A DNA stretch of 64,000 bases from Domibacillus indicus (lineage in GTDB: Bacteria; Bacillota; Bacilli; Bacillales; Domibacillaceae): contig NZ_JAMBOO010000011.1 in assembly GCF_023715895.1 (NCBI RefSeq), forward strand, positions 1 through 64,000. The letters run 5' to 3'. Below, piece after piece: positions 57,951 to 64,000 of this stretch (the stretch's first letter is position 1; the number at the start of each line of letters is the position of its first letter). Below the pieces are notes generated by a model, which did no database searches, was not told where the DNA came from, and worked only from the letters and a program-made list of their open reading frames with translations. Made by a program: the position numbers and the translations under genes.

Positions 57951-58529
57951 TTATTCGATTAACTGTATAAGATGGTCGGCTGCTTTCTCAATATCCACTC
58001 TTTTGTTCCCCGATGCCATATCATGAACGGCTCTTATCCGGCCATCCGCGTCTACCATGTACATGGAAGTTGAATGCGTAATGACGCCCTCCTCGCTTTT
58101 TTCATATACCATGTTAAATTGCTCAGCGTATTCTCTCGTTTGCTGTTCAGTGCCGCGCAGAAACAGCCAGTTTGATGATTGAATATCAAAGGCTTCCTTA
58201 TATTGCAAAATGACTGGGACGGTATCAAACGCCGGATCAAGCGTAACAGATAAGATACTATACTGCGCTTCTTCTATTCCTTTTTCCGCCAATGCTCGCT
58301 GAAGCTTTTTTAAATCCTGTATCGTAAAAGGGCAGACGTCCGGGCATTTTGTATAAAAAAACGACACAAGCATCGGCTTGCCGCTTACCGAAAAGTCATT
58401 TCCGCTTACCTCCTGCAATGAAAAATCATCCACTTCACCAAGCTTGGGCAGTTCTGACAAGGAAGTCCATACATAATAAAAGAAAAAACACCCTATAACA
58501 ACGGCAGCGGCGAGTGCTGTTTTCTTCAT
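57951..58529 (-). CDS. mnxC: Sco1/SenC-type copper/redox protein (MnxC-like)
   Basis: A 192-aa membrane-anchored thioredoxin-fold protein. One N-terminal membrane helix (about 4-22) is followed by the copper-binding CPDVC (Cys 62 and 66), TLDPAFDT and His 152 in ITHSTSMYMVD, which together form the Sco metal site. Such proteins deliver copper to oxidases. MnxC of the Bacillus SG-1 manganese-oxidation operon is a Sco homologue, and here the gene follows two small membrane-protein genes and lies near mnxEFG-like genes, as MnxC should. It could instead serve cytochrome oxidase, but no cox gene is present. 17 nt after the preceding gene. Confidence 0.72.
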   Translation of the reverse strand: MKKTALAAAVVIGCFFFYYVWTSLSELPKLGEVDDFSLQEVSGNDFSVSGKPMLVSFFYTKCPDVCPFTIQDLKKLQRALAEKGIEEAQYSILSVTLDPAFDTVPVILQYKEAFDIQSSNWLFLRGTEQQTREYAEQFNMVYEKSEEGVITHSTSMYMVDADGRIRAVHDMASGNKRVDIEKAADHLIQLIE

Positions 58530-58546: not shown

Positions 58547-58999
58547 CTACATGCGAAGCGAATAGCGAATAGATAACAGAATACAGGCATAAAAGCAGGA
58601 AGCAGCAAATGGAATAGTGTACAGATCCATAGCGGCGGCTGATTCGACCGGTATTCTACATAAAGCCGGGTTCTGCAGAACAGCACCAAGCATCGTACCC
58701 ATTGCGCCTCCGATTGCTCCATTATATAACCCATTCAATTGAGCTGGATTTCGCAGCAATTTGCCAAAATTCCAGCCAACCCATGCCCCGAAAAGCAAAG
58801 AAGCGCCATAAAAGCCTGGAAAAAGCAAAATCAAGTACATACTAAAAAGGAAGGAAGTCAGCATCGTGATAGTCATACAAATGACAAGTGTAAAATGATC
58901 GTCAAAAAGCAGCCGCTTTTTCTTCAATAAATGATAAATGCGATATAATTCAACTCCATTCCAGCTGCTTAATAATAAGATGAATAGCAATTTCCTCAC
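58547..58999 (-). CDS. Small membrane protein, candidate MnxB
   Basis: A 150-aa protein with about four hydrophobic segments and Gly-rich helices (GASLLFGAWVGWNFGKLL, NGAIGGAMGTMLGAVLQNPAL). No known domain. It starts with GTG whose TGA overlaps the stop of the previous gene and ends 17 nt before the Sco gene. By order it matches the second gene of the mnx operon; that is inference from position only. It resembles the preceding membrane protein in layout. Confidence 0.6.
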   Translation of the reverse strand: MRKLLFILLLSSWNGVELYRIYHLLKKKRLLFDDHFTLVICMTITMLTSFLFSMYLILLFPGFYGASLLFGAWVGWNFGKLLRNPAQLNGLYNGAIGGAMGTMLGAVLQNPALCRIPVESAAAMDLYTIPFAASCFYACILLSIRYSLRM

Positions 59000-59415
59000 G
59001 ACCTTTGAATAGAGATAATAATAAAAAAGAAGCAGAACAAAAAGAGACCGTGAACGAACAAAATGATTTGGCCTGGCATATCTAGTACTGATCCCAGCAT
59101 AGGAGCCATAATACCAACCATGAAGCCGTTTGTTACTCCAGCTAAACAGGTTTGATAATCAAAAAGCAGCCCAAACGCTGCGCCTGCTGCAGCACCGATT
59201 GCAGCGGAAGCGATTGTAATCAGCGAAAAATGAAAAGGAAAGGCCAAAATCAAAACAATCCCAGCTAGCAGAGCCGCGACTCCGCCCATCACCTGGCTGA
59301 TATTCATTCCAAGTTGAATGCCGACCCATTTTTTCCGGCGAAATACATACACGAATAGAATACTGCATAATAGTATGTCTATAGTTAGAAGATACAGCAG
59401 AGTAACTTCCTTCAT
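58996..59415 (-). CDS. Small membrane protein, candidate MnxA
   Basis: A 139-aa integral membrane protein with about four helices, including Gly/Ala-rich VMGGVAALLAGIVLILAF and AAIGAAAGAAFGLLF, and the pattern GVTNGFMVGIMAPMLGSVL that parallels NGAIGGAMGTMLGAVL in the next gene. The two therefore look paralogous. ATG 59415 with GAGGTG upstream. First gene of the minus-strand arm leading to the Sco gene. I do not recognise a function; a role in metal or copper handling for the Mnx oxidase is a guess. Confidence 0.6.
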   Translation of the reverse strand: MKEVTLLYLLTIDILLCSILFVYVFRRKKWVGIQLGMNISQVMGGVAALLAGIVLILAFPFHFSLITIASAAIGAAAGAAFGLLFDYQTCLAGVTNGFMVGIMAPMLGSVLDMPGQIILFVHGLFLFCFFFIIISIQRS

Positions 59416-59576: not shown

Positions 59577-60224
59577 TTACTTCTTTTCCAGCAAAACAAA
59601 ATCTTTGAATGAGAATAAAGCGGCTGTTACTGCTGCGCCTGCTGCCGGCTCTTCTTCCTCTTCTTCTTCCAGTCCTAGCACGTCAATTTCTTCTACCGGC
59701 TCTGCTGCTTCTGCTTCTGCGCTGTAAGAAACAGCATTAAAAACAACTTTTGCATCAGGATCCTTACTGATGACTGTGATGCGAATTTCAAATGAAAGAA
59801 CCGGTGTTGCCATAGGACCGCCATTTAGTAAGTCTGCAAAAAAGTGCTGCGTCTGATGGCATGGAATTTTCGTTTTTTCTGCCGGCATGACCGGTACAGC
59901 CATCGCTTTCATTGGAACAGCCATACCAACAGGTGTAGTCATAAGTCCAGCAGAAATAGCCGGGTCGCCCCAGTTCAATACTTCTACTTTCACCTGTACA
60001 GAATCTTTGTCAAAGTTTGTGGCAGATACCCATAGTTCTTGGGCGACCTGAGCCCCTGCTGCCGCATTCGAAATAGGCCCCGTCGTATATACTTTTTTGT
60101 GTTTTTGCTTTTTACACTCCATATCCTTTTCCTCCTTTTTATAATAATAGGCATTGCAACGTTTGCAATTTTTCACCTTATCGTCATTCTTAGACTTGCA
60201 ATGATAACATTTCCAACTACCCAT
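59577..60224 (-). CDS. Protein with RanBP2-type zinc finger and acidic C-terminal tail
   Basis: A 215-aa protein that I do not recognise as a whole. Residues 4-23 (WKCYHCKSKNDDKVKNCKRC) fit W-x-C-x2-C-x3-N-x6-C-x2-C, the RanBP2-type zinc-finger pattern. A beta-rich domain follows (about 45-175; ELWVSATNFDKDSVQVKVEVLNWGDPAI, FEIRITVISKDPDAKVVFNAVSY), then an acidic run of seven Glu (about 187-193) and an Ala/Gly-rich end. ATG 60224 has GGAGGGGG upstream; an internal ATG at 60122 with AAGGAGG 8 nt ahead could give a 181-aa form without the finger. A sigma-K-like promoter precedes it. Its place between the two mnx arms suggests a spore-surface or metal-binding role (inference). Confidence 0.65.
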   Translation of the reverse strand: MGSWKCYHCKSKNDDKVKNCKRCNAYYYKKEEKDMECKKQKHKKVYTTGPISNAAAGAQVAQELWVSATNFDKDSVQVKVEVLNWGDPAISAGLMTTPVGMAVPMKAMAVPVMPAEKTKIPCHQTQHFFADLLNGGPMATPVLSFEIRITVISKDPDAKVVFNAVSYSAEAEAAEPVEEIDVLGLEEEEEEEPAAGAAVTAALFSFKDFVLLEKK

Positions 60225-60273
60225 GTATTCGTTAACCCCCTCCCTATTTATTCCAAGTTTTTTCTTGGTTCTA

Positions 60274-60302
60274 TATCGTATGAACGTACTTACAGCCCCG
60301 TA
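60274..60302 (-). promoter_or_regulatory. Sigma-K-like promoter of the zinc-finger gene
   Basis: On the - strand AC, 17 nt, CATACGATA matches the sigma-K pattern (mACm, 16-17 nt, CATAnnnTA) exactly in the -10. The mnx operon of Bacillus SG-1 is expressed in the mother cell late in sporulation from a sigma-K-type promoter. Confidence 0.5.
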
Positions 60303-60451: not shown

Positions 60452-61210
60452 ATGAAAACCCATATGAGATTTGATCAATACCTTTCCGCATTGCTCGAAA
60501 AAAGAAAACAGGAACCGCGAACTGAAAGCAAAACAGACGAAACAAAAGAAAGATTCAGCTCTCCTGCTGGAGCAGCGCCTACAGAAGAAATACGCTTGTT
60601 TACTGAATACAAAGAACAGGCGAATCTGCTGCAGATCGCAAAATTTGCTCCTCAAAAAAGAAAGTTTTTAATACTGAAAAAATTCTTTAAGATGAGACGA
60701 AATCAGCAGGTAATCGTTTTTCTGAAAAACAGTAGGCAAGTTGTTGAAACAACGGGCAAAGTGAATGCGGTTGGCCGTGATTTTGTGATGCTCACAAATG
60801 CAAAAGAGCGGATTTGGATTCCTTTTCAAGCAATTGAATCCGCTAATATTCCAACAGGTATTCCTCTTTATTCCACTACCCACCAAAACCTTATTTATGA
60901 TAATCAGCTAAAACAGCGTTTACTTTCCAATTTTGGTGAGACCGTTGCCGCGAGAGATGTACTCATTCAGCAGTTTTACGAGGAAACACTTTTAACAAAT
61001 TTGAATTCCTGGAAGTACTTATGGGTGAAGGTCGAGACTGAAAAAAAAACTTTATTCGGAAAAATGAAGGATACGGACAGCCAAACTCTCCGTCTATCTT
61101 TTTGGAAGGAAAAGCACGAAATTGAGATTGCGCATATTGTTACAATTCAAAGCATACGTTACATAAGTCTATTTCCATTAATTGTAACAAGGCTTTCCCG
61201 AATATTTTAA
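60452..61210 (+). CDS. Unknown protein with two SH3-like repeats, candidate MnxD
   Basis: A 252-aa basic protein without recognised family. After a charged, probably unfolded N-terminus (about 1-50) it has two related beta-barrel-like stretches: QVIVFLKNSRQVVETTGKVN to RIWIPFQAIESANI (about 85-135) and YLWVKVETEKKTLFGKMKDT to EIEIAHIVTIQSI (about 189-235). The same pattern occurs in the two downstream small proteins. ATG 60452 with AAGGGGGA upstream. It starts the plus-strand arm ahead of the mnxE/F/G-like genes, the place of mnxD in Bacillus SG-1. Confidence 0.6.
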   Translation: MKTHMRFDQYLSALLEKRKQEPRTESKTDETKERFSSPAGAAPTEEIRLFTEYKEQANLLQIAKFAPQKRKFLILKKFFKMRRNQQVIVFLKNSRQVVETTGKVNAVGRDFVMLTNAKERIWIPFQAIESANIPTGIPLYSTTHQNLIYDNQLKQRLLSNFGETVAARDVLIQQFYEETLLTNLNSWKYLWVKVETEKKTLFGKMKDTDSQTLRLSFWKEKHEIEIAHIVTIQSIRYISLFPLIVTRLSRIF

Positions 61211-61289: not shown

Positions 61290-61823
61290 ATGAGCAACAA
61301 ACGGGATGAGAAAGAAAAACAAGATGAAAACCTAATTGCCGCGGAAAATGAAAATACGAATAAAGAACTTGAGATATCAGAGGACAACACGGAAGAAAAG
61401 GAACATGCAGCAGAACAAGGAAACGATAAAAAAGAGGATGAGGAAAAAGACCGCGAGGAGCAAGAAGAAGAAGAAGAAGAAGAAGAAGAAGAGGATGAGG
61501 AAGACGATGAGGAAGACGATGAGGAAGATGAAGACGACGAAGACGATGATGAATTTTTTGAAGAATTGACCACTTTGATAGGCCAAAGTGTATTAATTAT
61601 TACCGAAGCGTCTCAACTAAATTTGCTTGGCCAGACATTCAGACCTATTTTTTGCGGACCGATTGTTGAAGTGGAAAGAAGCCACCTGACGATTGATCCG
61701 GTCACCATTAAAATTTTGAATGCACCATTTTTCCAGTTTCCGCTGCCGCTGTCCATTCCTTTTGAAAAAATTGCCCAGCTGACGCCTTGTTTTGATTGCA
61801 GTGAGCGGTTTCCGCTTATTTAA
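61290..61823 (+). CDS. mnxE: MnxE-like small subunit with long acidic N-terminal extension
   Basis: A 177-aa protein in two parts. Residues 1-55 are charged, residues about 55-93 are almost all Glu and Asp, and residues about 94-177 form a small domain (LTTLIGQSVLIITEASQL to PFFQFPLPLSIPFEKIAQLT) with two closing Cys (CFDCS). The domain size and place (next to the MnxF-like gene and the oxidase) match MnxE, a small subunit of the MnxEFG complex of Bacillus PL-12. The acidic extension is unusual and could bind Mn(II) or other cations. RBS AAAGGAGAG. Confidence 0.68.
   Translation: MSNKRDEKEKQDENLIAAENENTNKELEISEDNTEEKEHAAEQGNDKKEDEEKDREEQEEEEEEEEEEDEEDDEEDDEEDEDDEDDDEFFEELTTLIGQSVLIITEASQLNLLGQTFRPIFCGPIVEVERSHLTIDPVTIKILNAPFFQFPLPLSIPFEKIAQLTPCFDCSERFPLI
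61461..61556 (+). repeat. GAA/GAG/GAT triplet tract inside mnxE-like gene
   Basis: About ten perfect GAA triplets (near 61463-61493) followed by mixed GAG/GAT/GAC codons. Changes in triplet number would lengthen or shorten the acidic run without a frameshift. Confidence 0.75.
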
Positions 61824-61850: not shown

Positions 61851-62147
61851 ATGACGCCTAGATCTTCCGGTTTAAATGACCATAACGGTATGCATGATGC
61901 TGCGCTGGTGGAACACTTCAGGGCAGCCATTGGCCAGAGGGCTTTTCTACTGACTCCTTCTTATCCCTTTATGTTTATCGGTGAAATTGTTTCCTTGATA
62001 GGAGACCAGGTAGAGCTTGCAGTCGAAACGACCCACTTTGCTCAGCTGGAAAACCGAAATTGGCTCATTCATATTCATAATATCGAAGTGTTTTATATCG
62101 AGTTTCCTGGCGATCCGCGCATCCCAGAGTTAAATGACATGCTGTAA
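61851..62147 (+). CDS. mnxF: MnxF-like small subunit
   Basis: A 98-aa small protein with the pattern HFRAAIGQRAFLLTPSYPFMFI, GEIVSLIGDQVELAVETTHF, then LENRNWLIHIHNIEVFYIEF, fitting the small barrel-like MnxF subunit of the MnxEFG complex, which oxidises Mn(II) with the MnxG subunit. His pairs (HIH) could bind copper. RBS GAAAGGAAG. It ends 14 nt before the mnxG-like start. Confidence 0.75.
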   Translation: MTPRSSGLNDHNGMHDAALVEHFRAAIGQRAFLLTPSYPFMFIGEIVSLIGDQVELAVETTHFAQLENRNWLIHIHNIEVFYIEFPGDPRIPELNDML

Positions 62148-62161
62148 CGAGGAGGAAAACG

Positions 62162-64000
62162 ATGATACGTCGTTATCATGTAGTCGCGATTCCCATCCGG
62201 ATGGTGGTAAACAATTTTGGCGACCATAACCCTGATGGACAGATGTATGTGTTAAAGGAAAATGAAGCAAAGATAAAAGAGCTGATCCGCAAAAACCCTT
62301 TTACCCCGGTAGACCTGGTGCAGCCGCTGACAATCAGGGCGAACGAAGGGGATACTGTCGAAATTCTCTTTGAAAATCAGCTTCCTTTTGCAGCGGGCAT
62401 GCATTTTCAAGATATTGATTATAATGTGCTGACCTCAGACGGAGCCAATGTCGGCTTTAATCCGAGCTCACTGGCTGAATGCGGTGAAAAGCTTCTGTAC
62501 AAGCTGGAGGCTACGTATGAAGGAATTTGCTTTTTCACCGATGTCGGCAACGTATCGAGTACCGAAGAAGGCTCCAGTATCCAGGGCCTTTTCGGTACTC
62601 TGCTCGTTGAAAAAAGAGGCTCCTGGTGGACCGACCCCGTAACAGGCGGGCCGATCAACAGCGGCGTGTTCGCGGATATTCACAACCCTTTTCTTCCCTC
62701 CTTCCGTGAGTATGCATGGTTTTTCCATGATGAAATGGAAGTCGATGATTTAACGGGCAACCGGCCGCTTAACCCGATGACCAATCAGGAAGCTGAATCG
62801 TTTCACGGTGTTAACTACCGATATGAACCGCTTCATAACCGCCTAAAGCTGATAGAAGAAGGTGTTGTATCTCCCGAGGTTGAAGGGGAAGAAGTTCATC
62901 ACGATTCCTGGATGTTCGGTGATCCTGCAACGCCTATTTTGCGCGGGTACCGGGATGACCCGGCTACTATCCGCCTTATTCATGCGGCTTCAAAAGAAAC
63001 ACACGTCTTTCACTACCATGCGCACCAATGGCTGAGAGATCCAAGTAACGTTCAGTCTGAAATCGTGGATGCGCAGGCGATCAGTCCGCAATCCCACTAC
63101 AGCGTTCAGCCTTTATACGGACTTGGAAGTCTGCCTGGTACAATCGGGGATGTGATTATTCACTGCCACCTGTATCCACATTTTGAAGCCGGCATGTGGG
63201 GGATGAACCGGATTTTTGATACATTGCAGGACGGGAGCCAATGCTACCCAAATGGCAAACCCATTGCACCGCTTCAGCCGCTGCCGGACCGCCCTTGTCC
63301 GCCGCGCCCAACAAAAGAAAGACCGGGATTCCCGAACTTCATTCCCGGAAAAGTCGGCTGCAAGGCACCCCGCCCTCCTCTCGGCATTGTCGGCGGCCGC
63401 GAAATGACCGAGCTTGAGAAAAATGCCGCTGTCCCGAATGCAAGGCCGGGAGCTGTTTTTGTAGATCCGTGCATGAATAACCCGGTTGTTGTCGAGTTTA
63501 ATATATCCGTCATTGAAATGCCGATCGTTTATAACAAACAAGGCTGGTATGACCCAAAAGGCAGATTCTATGTACTGGATGAAGACCTGGATGACGTGCT
63601 TTCCGGAAAAAAAGAACCTGAACCGCTTGTTTTGCATGTACCAGCCGGCACCTGCATCCGAATCAACTTTACGAATCGGCTGCCTCATATTTTGGATGGC
63701 GACGCTTTTCAGCTGGTGACCCGGACCTATGAGGTCGGTTTCCACATTCATTTCGTAAAATTCGATGTTCTTGTATGTGACGGCGCTAACGTAGGCTGGA
63801 ATTATGACAGCTCTGTTTTGCCAAATGAAACTGCCCGGTATGAGTATTTTGCCGATACGGAATTAAAAGCCTTTTTCGTTCATGACCATTTGTTTCCTGT
63901 TTCTCATCAGCAGCATGGCATTTTTGGAACGATTATTGTACAGCCGCGCTTTTCTCAGTTTTTGGATTCTAAAACAGGCGAAGAAACGGATCAGGGAGCC
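62162..64000 (+). CDS. mnxG: Multicopper oxidase MnxG-like, partial (N-terminal 613 aa)
   Basis: An open frame of 613 codons running off the right edge with no stop. It starts at ATG 62162 with GAGGAGG 6 nt upstream. The N-terminus MIRRYHVVAIPIRMVVNNFG begins a cupredoxin array. The first copper centre shows HVFHYHAHQW (281-290) and HCHLYPHFEAGM (334-345), which fits the type 1/trinuclear motif HCHxxxHxxxxM. A second cupredoxin repeat has FHIHFVKFD and FVHDHLFPVSHQQHGIFG, where Asp replaces the Cys of HCH, so this copy probably lacks a type 1 copper. Known MnxG (about 1,200 aa, six cupredoxin domains) oxidises Mn(II) to Mn(IV) on spores; the rest of this gene should hold further domains. Confidence 0.85.
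   Translation, partial: MIRRYHVVAIPIRMVVNNFGDHNPDGQMYVLKENEAKIKELIRKNPFTPVDLVQPLTIRANEGDTVEILFENQLPFAAGMHFQDIDYNVLTSDGANVGFNPSSLAECGEKLLYKLEATYEGICFFTDVGNVSSTEEGSSIQGLFGTLLVEKRGSWWTDPVTGGPINSGVFADIHNPFLPSFREYAWFFHDEMEVDDLTGNRPLNPMTNQEAESFHGVNYRYEPLHNRLKLIEEGVVSPEVEGEEVHHDSWMFGDPATPILRGYRDDPATIRLIHAASKETHVFHYHAHQWLRDPSNVQSEIVDAQAISPQSHYSVQPLYGLGSLPGTIGDVIIHCHLYPHFEAGMWGMNRIFDTLQDGSQCYPNGKPIAPLQPLPDRPCPPRPTKERPGFPNFIPGKVGCKAPRPPLGIVGGREMTELEKNAAVPNARPGAVFVDPCMNNPVVVEFNISVIEMPIVYNKQGWYDPKGRFYVLDEDLDDVLSGKKEPEPLVLHVPAGTCIRINFTNRLPHILDGDAFQLVTRTYEVGFHIHFVKFDVLVCDGANVGWNYDSSVLPNETARYEYFADTELKAFFVHDHLFPVSHQQHGIFGTIIVQPRFSQFLDSKTGEETDQGA

Follow-up and report, generated by a model that had tools for sequence, protein, structure and literature searches.

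A RanBP2-like finger protein with a conserved internal start at an mnx-like locus of Domibacillus: a candidate for a spore protein made with and without its N-terminal tag

In Bacillus subtilis, according to two reports (PMC6282716, PMC6490927), SafA comes in two forms: the full-length protein, whose N-terminus carries a localisation part, and the shorter C30, which is produced by internal translation and gets to the spore via full-length SafA. The gene described here is predicted to resemble this system in combining an N-terminal localisation part with an internal start for a short form. It differs in that no LysM was found and the short form is a prediction, and no shared sequence is claimed. 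With regard to its N-terminal finger, the closest described modules are the RanBP2/NZF fingers (Pfam PF00641; Nup153, NPL4, TRABID, TAB2 and MDM2), which share with it the spacing of the four Cys residues, a Trp two residues before the first Cys, an Asn and two predicted hairpins, and which are its commonest match type both by profile and by structure. Unlike them, the finger studied here remains below the Pfam cut-off, lacks the TF, LV and W-x-R-R ligand contacts and is located at the N-terminus of a bacterial beta-sandwich. Fingers of this type have already been reported in prokaryotes and are therefore not new there. A RanBP2-type motif is reported for the finger of archaeal ArnA (PMC6509490), and some zinc modules of bacterial YprA helicases are stated to resemble RanBP2 fingers (PMC12458937). 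ArnA (chains 8s05_C and 5a8i_A), which is among the best PDB sequence matches, also carries one N-terminal finger, but its body is an FHA domain and it regulates the archaellum. RadD was matched by structure (7r7j) and weakly by NCBIfam; however, RadD and the YprA-type proteins are large helicases, in which the finger is one part among many.

The gene lies in a 64,000-nucleotide stretch of Domibacillus indicus DNA, hereafter the window (Table 1). It starts with ATG and heads a leftward arm, followed by mnxA-, mnxB- and mnxC-like genes, and a rightward arm of mnxD-, mnxE-, mnxF- and mnxG-like genes is arranged back to back with it. The location between two diverging mnx arms that had been read from the sequence alone is thus confirmed. 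The names mnxA, mnxB, mnxD, mnxE and mnxF are presumptive and were assigned by position and order together with similarity. Cu-oxidase domains were found in the mnxG orthologue L029:364-4014, on which the NCBIfam MnxG model scored 318.8 versus a cut-off of 3100. We considered a broken mnxG and rejected it, because the gene exceeds the window and its ORF stays open in the contig, as far as contig position 65809. Open mnxG copies number four in the window's genome (G000; contigs C22, C106, C98 and C66), three in G008 and two in G005, and two of the four copies in G000 are accompanied by a finger gene. The first half of the mnxE-like protein is very acidic, being rich in Glu and Asp, and this half differs in length among species.

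Table 1. Features of the finger gene and of the surrounding mnx-like locus (window coordinates)
Feature	Position	Strand	Basis
mnxC-like gene, SCO1/SenC family	57951..58529	-	family search and neighbourhood comparison
mnxB-like gene	58547..58999	-	neighbourhood comparison
mnxA-like gene	58996..59415	-	neighbourhood comparison
Gene for finger/beta-domain protein, long form of 215 aa	59577..60224	-	ORF and full-length orthologues
Predicted beta-sandwich body, about residues 42-215	59580..60101	-	AF2 model and alignment
Acidic low-confidence insertion before the last beta strands, about residues 171-196	59637..59714	-	AF2 model and alignment
Internal in-frame ATG (codon 35), putative start of 181-aa short form	60120..60122	-	orthologue comparison
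Internal Shine-Dalgarno sequence AAAGGAGG in the linker	60131..60138	-	orthologue comparison
RanBP2-like C4 finger, residues 4-23 (WKCYHCKSKNDDKVKNCKRC)	60156..60215	-	pattern, profile, AF2, Foldseek, VIA-align
Shine-Dalgarno region of the first start (GGGAGGGGG)	60236..60244	-	sequence and Shine-Dalgarno energy
Predicted stem-loop CCAAG-A6-CTTGG near the presumed mRNA 5' end	60253..60268	-	inverted repeat
Sigma-K-like promoter AC-N17-CATACGATA	60274..60301	-	motif search; conserved upstream of orthologues
mnxD-like gene, first in divergent arm	60452..61210	+	neighbourhood comparison
mnxE-like gene, acidic N-terminal half	61290..61823	+	ORF and neighbourhood comparison
mnxF-like gene	61851..62147	+	neighbourhood comparison
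mnxG-like multicopper oxidase gene, continuing past the window end	62162..64000	+	neighbourhood comparison

The internal start noticed in the sequence-only reading is present as described and is also conserved among relatives, which is a stronger result than the classification of the finger; we infer that two products are made in cells. In the window gene, the Shine-Dalgarno (SD) sequence is separated from the internal ATG by 8 nt. In a comparison of 13 genes, which omits the second copy of G000, GGAGG is present between finger and body (in G001, just before the body) in 11. It is followed by an in-frame ATG or GTG 8-11 nt on in 10 genes, at exactly 8 nt in nine, and these 10 include two in which the finger precedes other bodies. 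The only other GGAGG within codons 6-120 of these genes is in G061. G004 contains GGAGG without a start codon, and G011 and G018 contain neither; therefore, a short form is not universal. Across six orthologues picked for having both the finger and the internal site, AGGAGGA ranks fourth in length among the invariant runs of the gene, and no other invariant run of at least 5 nt lies out of codon phase. When codons were resampled with the proteins fixed, the chance of obtaining the site was 0.015-0.114 per gene in the eight tested genes that have it, values that must not be multiplied because the relatives are few and share ancestry. According to one publication (PMC5100845), the coding regions of most genomes are depleted in AGGAGG.

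The anti-SD energy of the window's internal start is -12.2 kcal/mol. Values of -12 kcal/mol or lower were reached by 8 of the 706 internal ATG/GTG codons in the long ORFs of the window, and the own starts of nine neighbouring genes range from -9.4 to -15.5 kcal/mol, mnxB apart (-0.6 kcal/mol). The first start of the gene has its own SD, which is stronger than the internal one (-15.0 versus -12.2 kcal/mol), as is the case in 4 of the 8 genes having both. By predicted mRNA folding, neither start is consistently the more accessible (4 of 8 each way). The sequence-only reading had considered that translation might always begin at the internal codon; the internal site is the only SD-led start in one orthologue, G001. 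There, the finger is absent, an in-frame stop is present upstream and AAAGGAGG-8-GTG forms the SD-led start, with an in-frame ATG 13 codons ahead of this GTG.

The exact fit of residues 4-23 to W-x-C-x2-C-x3-N-x6-C-x2-C, the observation from which the earlier reading started, holds. The RanBP2-type consensus is W-x-C-x2-4-C-x3-N-x6-C-x2-C, and eight distinct fingers fit it exactly. A six-frame scan of 1.68 million residues, a set enriched in relatives, detected the full pattern in nine distinct sequences. Eight belong to finger genes; the ninth is from L044, itself a sequence retrieved with the finger profile. The looser C-x2-C-x10-C-x2-C occurs twice in the window, the second match being outside any recognised gene. 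All four Cys residues are invariant in the nine aligned fingers. The Asn of the pattern is replaced by S in the L026 finger, and the L008 finger and the G009 C7 finger are degenerate.

None of the nine fingers reached the cut-off of PF00641 (best score 22.3 bits versus 27). At E <= 10, PF00641 matched six of the nine; the window finger was absent from these matches and was also unlisted in a PF00641 search of its own genome. DZR matched eight of the nine, all below its cut-off. A profile of the nine fingers searched against the PDB yielded 36 sequences at E <= 10, of which 25 were counted as RanBP2/NZF; ArnA accounted for 2, and the remaining 9 were of other types (ribosomal, Sec24). AF2 modelling of the finger alone (mean pLDDT 83.1) predicts two hairpins around one zinc site, and the finger in the full-length model is poor (pLDDT about 50). 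In a Foldseek search with the finger-alone model, the best 50 of 157 matches, classed by entry title and partly by recall, include 43 of RanBP2/NZF type, 34 of which have an rmsd of 0.5-1.1 A; the other seven are ArnA, RadD (twice), ribosomal proteins (twice), GATOR2 and thioredoxin. The best E-value was 0.084, which is weak, as expected at 32 residues. VIA-align concurred (best Z 4.8), with ribosomal L40-type ribbons ranking lower.

Because likeness in sequence and predicted fold is combined with Pfam scores below the cut-off, we refer to the finger as RanBP2-like without assigning it to the Pfam family. The RanBP2-type identity proposed earlier therefore stands as to sequence and predicted fold, and falls short as to Pfam membership and ligand contacts. 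Fingers of this kind are most familiar from animal and yeast cells, and ArnA, RadD and YprA provide prokaryotic cases. The homologues are more than generic zinc ribbons. As for the contacts, TF marks binding of ubiquitin, LV that of Ran, and an aromatic residue with Arg-Arg (W-x-R-R) that of RNA; none of these is present in the aligned fingers. At the position after the second Cys, where NPL4 has CTF, the fingers show C-K-S/Y/H/K, C-R-Y or C-N-Y. The finger is maintained by selection: over codons 1-26, pS exceeds pN in all 15 pairs of the six orthologues (pS 0.57-1.17 versus pN 0.16-0.33 in the finger codons, pS being saturated). Most members contain basic residues in the finger, and that of G061 is acidic. 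Docking of a basic finger to acidic partners had been considered and was dropped, the G061 finger being acidic.

The AF2 model supports the fusion of the finger to a beta-rich domain. The segment previously described as an acidic tail is instead an insertion that precedes a conserved last strand; it is variable in length and, in the alignment, absent in G018 and Priestia. A Pfam scan of the whole protein at E <= 10 returned only DUF3568 and DZR, both below their cut-offs, and no LysM domain. An NCBIfam RadD match of the whole protein (E 1.7e-4, 20 of 720 bits) was treated as a resemblance only. Foldseek with the body gave no match at E <= 0.001, and the best VIA-align match was TM1070 (Z 7.7 over 99 residues, rmsd 3.2); judged by these structure searches, the body does not clearly belong to a known fold. 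A likeness of the body to subunits of endospore appendages (7a02, Z 5.4 by VIA-align) was considered and not relied on.

Upstream of the gene, AC-N17-CATANNNTA was found once in the window versus 0.92 expected; therefore, it is the conservation of the promoter, not the match itself, that carries weight. Judged against the Sigma-K consensus, AC-N15-18-CATANNNT is present upstream of 10 of 14 genes, and CATA-N3-TA alone upstream of those in G007 (a contig end with 65 nt only), G020 and G018. No Sigma-K-like match was found upstream of the Priestia gene, nor was the same consensus matched on the mnxD side of the intergenic region. In the orthologues, similar inverted repeats, partly imperfect, were seen by eye after the promoter. 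In the window gene, the stem-loop may serve to stabilise the mRNA at its 5' end. The finger-less Priestia gene is located near two genes that score above the cut-off of the NCBIfam CsxC family, presumably a family of exosporium proteins.

Of seven loci with relatives of the protein, five are named, all as Domibacillus, at 48-95% identity; D. robiginosus and D. iocasae both have the gene. With the window protein as query, matches at E <= 0.01 were obtained in 11 of 61 genomes. The profile detected full-length or near-full relatives in 8 of the 13 genomes of the genus, including the finger-less G001, and matched G004 and G009 in the finger alone; most of these matching genomes are profile seeds and match by construction. 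One further full-length relative, with a degenerate finger, is present in G018, a member of the same family. In the order, the profile matched six of 397 genomes, five of which belong to the genus, while the sixth has a homologue without the finger. A body profile gave four matches among 398 genomes of the class, comprising the window's own genome and three weak, partial matches. Neither finger nor body was found by tblastn (E <= 1e-3) at 14 mnxG loci of 12 genomes outside the genus, at G003 or at four further mnxG loci from G000 and G008; the protein is therefore a lineage-specific mnx addition and not a core mnx part. Searches of plasmid and phage collections at E <= 0.01 were negative. Ten of 24 family genomes matched the finger strongly (E < 1e-10), nearly all of them profile seeds; in the order, such matches came from 5 of the 397 genomes, all in the genus. 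Seven further genomes of the order gave weak finger matches (E 0.002-0.01). The two weak matches that were inspected, L042 and L044, are other kinds of protein, although L044 fits the exact pattern.

The finger also precedes bodies of other kinds. A second body family (DDLK...FRxDEP) occurs with the finger in G020, G004 and G009 (L010:943-1629, L009:1489-2130 and L049:1492-2076); its finger is intact in G020 and G004 and degenerate in a G009 gene, and no Pfam family was found above cut-off in L010:943-1629 and L009:1489-2130. We regard the bodies of the window and of G020 as different because neither was retrieved in searches using the other. In L026:1501-1887 (G009), the finger is followed by a long Asp-Ala repeat, within which the analysed stretch stops. 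It is conceivable, if on balance doubtful, that a cassette consisting of the Sigma-K-like promoter, 5' stem-loop, finger and SD-bearing linker, located before at least three bodies that mostly keep the internal start, serves as a reusable N-terminal address tag yielding tagged and untagged spore proteins in Domibacillus and a near relative.

Our main reading, to which we assign a probability of about 0.5, is that the product is a spore protein synthesised late in the mother cell in two versions, one bearing an N-terminal docking finger and one lacking it, comparable to SafA and C30. The beta-sandwich body would probably have existed first without the finger, a RanBP2-like C4 module would then have been placed in frame ahead of it, and the ribosome-binding site and start codon at the beginning of the body would have been retained, so that the mRNA has two likely starts. 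Initiation at the first would give the 215-aa finger form and initiation at the internal start (60122) the 181-aa body. In this reading, the finger most likely holds zinc and serves as an N-terminal tag by which the long form docks to a spore layer or an Mnx partner. By analogy with B. subtilis, where full-length SafA recruits C30, the long form would be anchored and the short form would co-assemble through the body; location of the protein in the spore is likewise an expectation from this reading. If both forms are made, this would be a second case beside SafA of a spore protein tagged and untagged by means of an internal start. It would also provide a small bacterial system for asking what RanBP2-like fingers bind without Ran or ubiquitin and how the manganese oxidase is held on the spore surface.

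The internal SD could also be a pause site or a fusion relic, that is, a start left from the past of the body as a separate gene, with only the long form made now. A relic agrees with the finger-less Priestia homologue, whose first residues (MFKKVYTSG) align six positions further in than the window's internal start, and with the retention of the gene in G011 and G018, which have no site, and in G004, which has no start codon. However, AGGAGGA is invariant across six orthologues of 0.51-0.96 pairwise protein identity while encoding KEE, EED or EEE, these same orthologues use different codons for 10-49% of the residues that are unchanged, and spacing and start codon stay together with the SD, which makes a mere relic rather improbable.

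A somewhat better alternative, though still an unlikely one, concerns the finger itself, which may have a purely structural role, as an ordinary zinc ribbon or a stabilising cap without a partner, the protein being a coat building block made from one or two starts. The DZR matches, sub-cut-off as they are, would suit such a role, as would the missing contacts for the known RanBP2 ligands, the unconserved charge exemplified by the acidic G061 finger, and the loss of the finger in G001. Against it, six orthologues keep the finger under selection, eight distinct fingers share the RanBP2-type Trp and Asn, and the same module occurs before other bodies. It is highly improbable that the finger binds RNA in the manner of ZRANB2-type fingers and regulates how the mnx mRNAs or its own mRNA are translated, because, despite the RanBP2-like fold and the basic residues of most members, the aromatic and Arg-Arg positions of the RNA contacts are not kept and the G061 finger is acidic. 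We give just as little credence to handling of copper or manganese for the oxidase, in place of structural zinc, by the Cys4 site: the gene is close to mnxC (SCO1/SenC family) and mnxG (Cu-oxidase domains), but similar fingers are present in G004, G009 and G020, in which a search for mnxG found none at E <= 1e-20. The reading as a docking finger on a protein made in two forms is the one that we prefer.

The second finger gene of G000, on contig C106, encodes a protein identical to that of the window. Between the two copies, 2 of 648 sites differ within the gene versus 43 of 831 in the flanks, gaps apart (Fisher p 4e-9), and this low divergence could be due to purifying selection or gene conversion. 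The surrounding region (L078, G000:C106, 7578-17260) is a scrambled second mnx locus, in which the finger gene is intact and lies between pieces of mnxE, mnxA and mnxD, with mnxE-F-G coming after.
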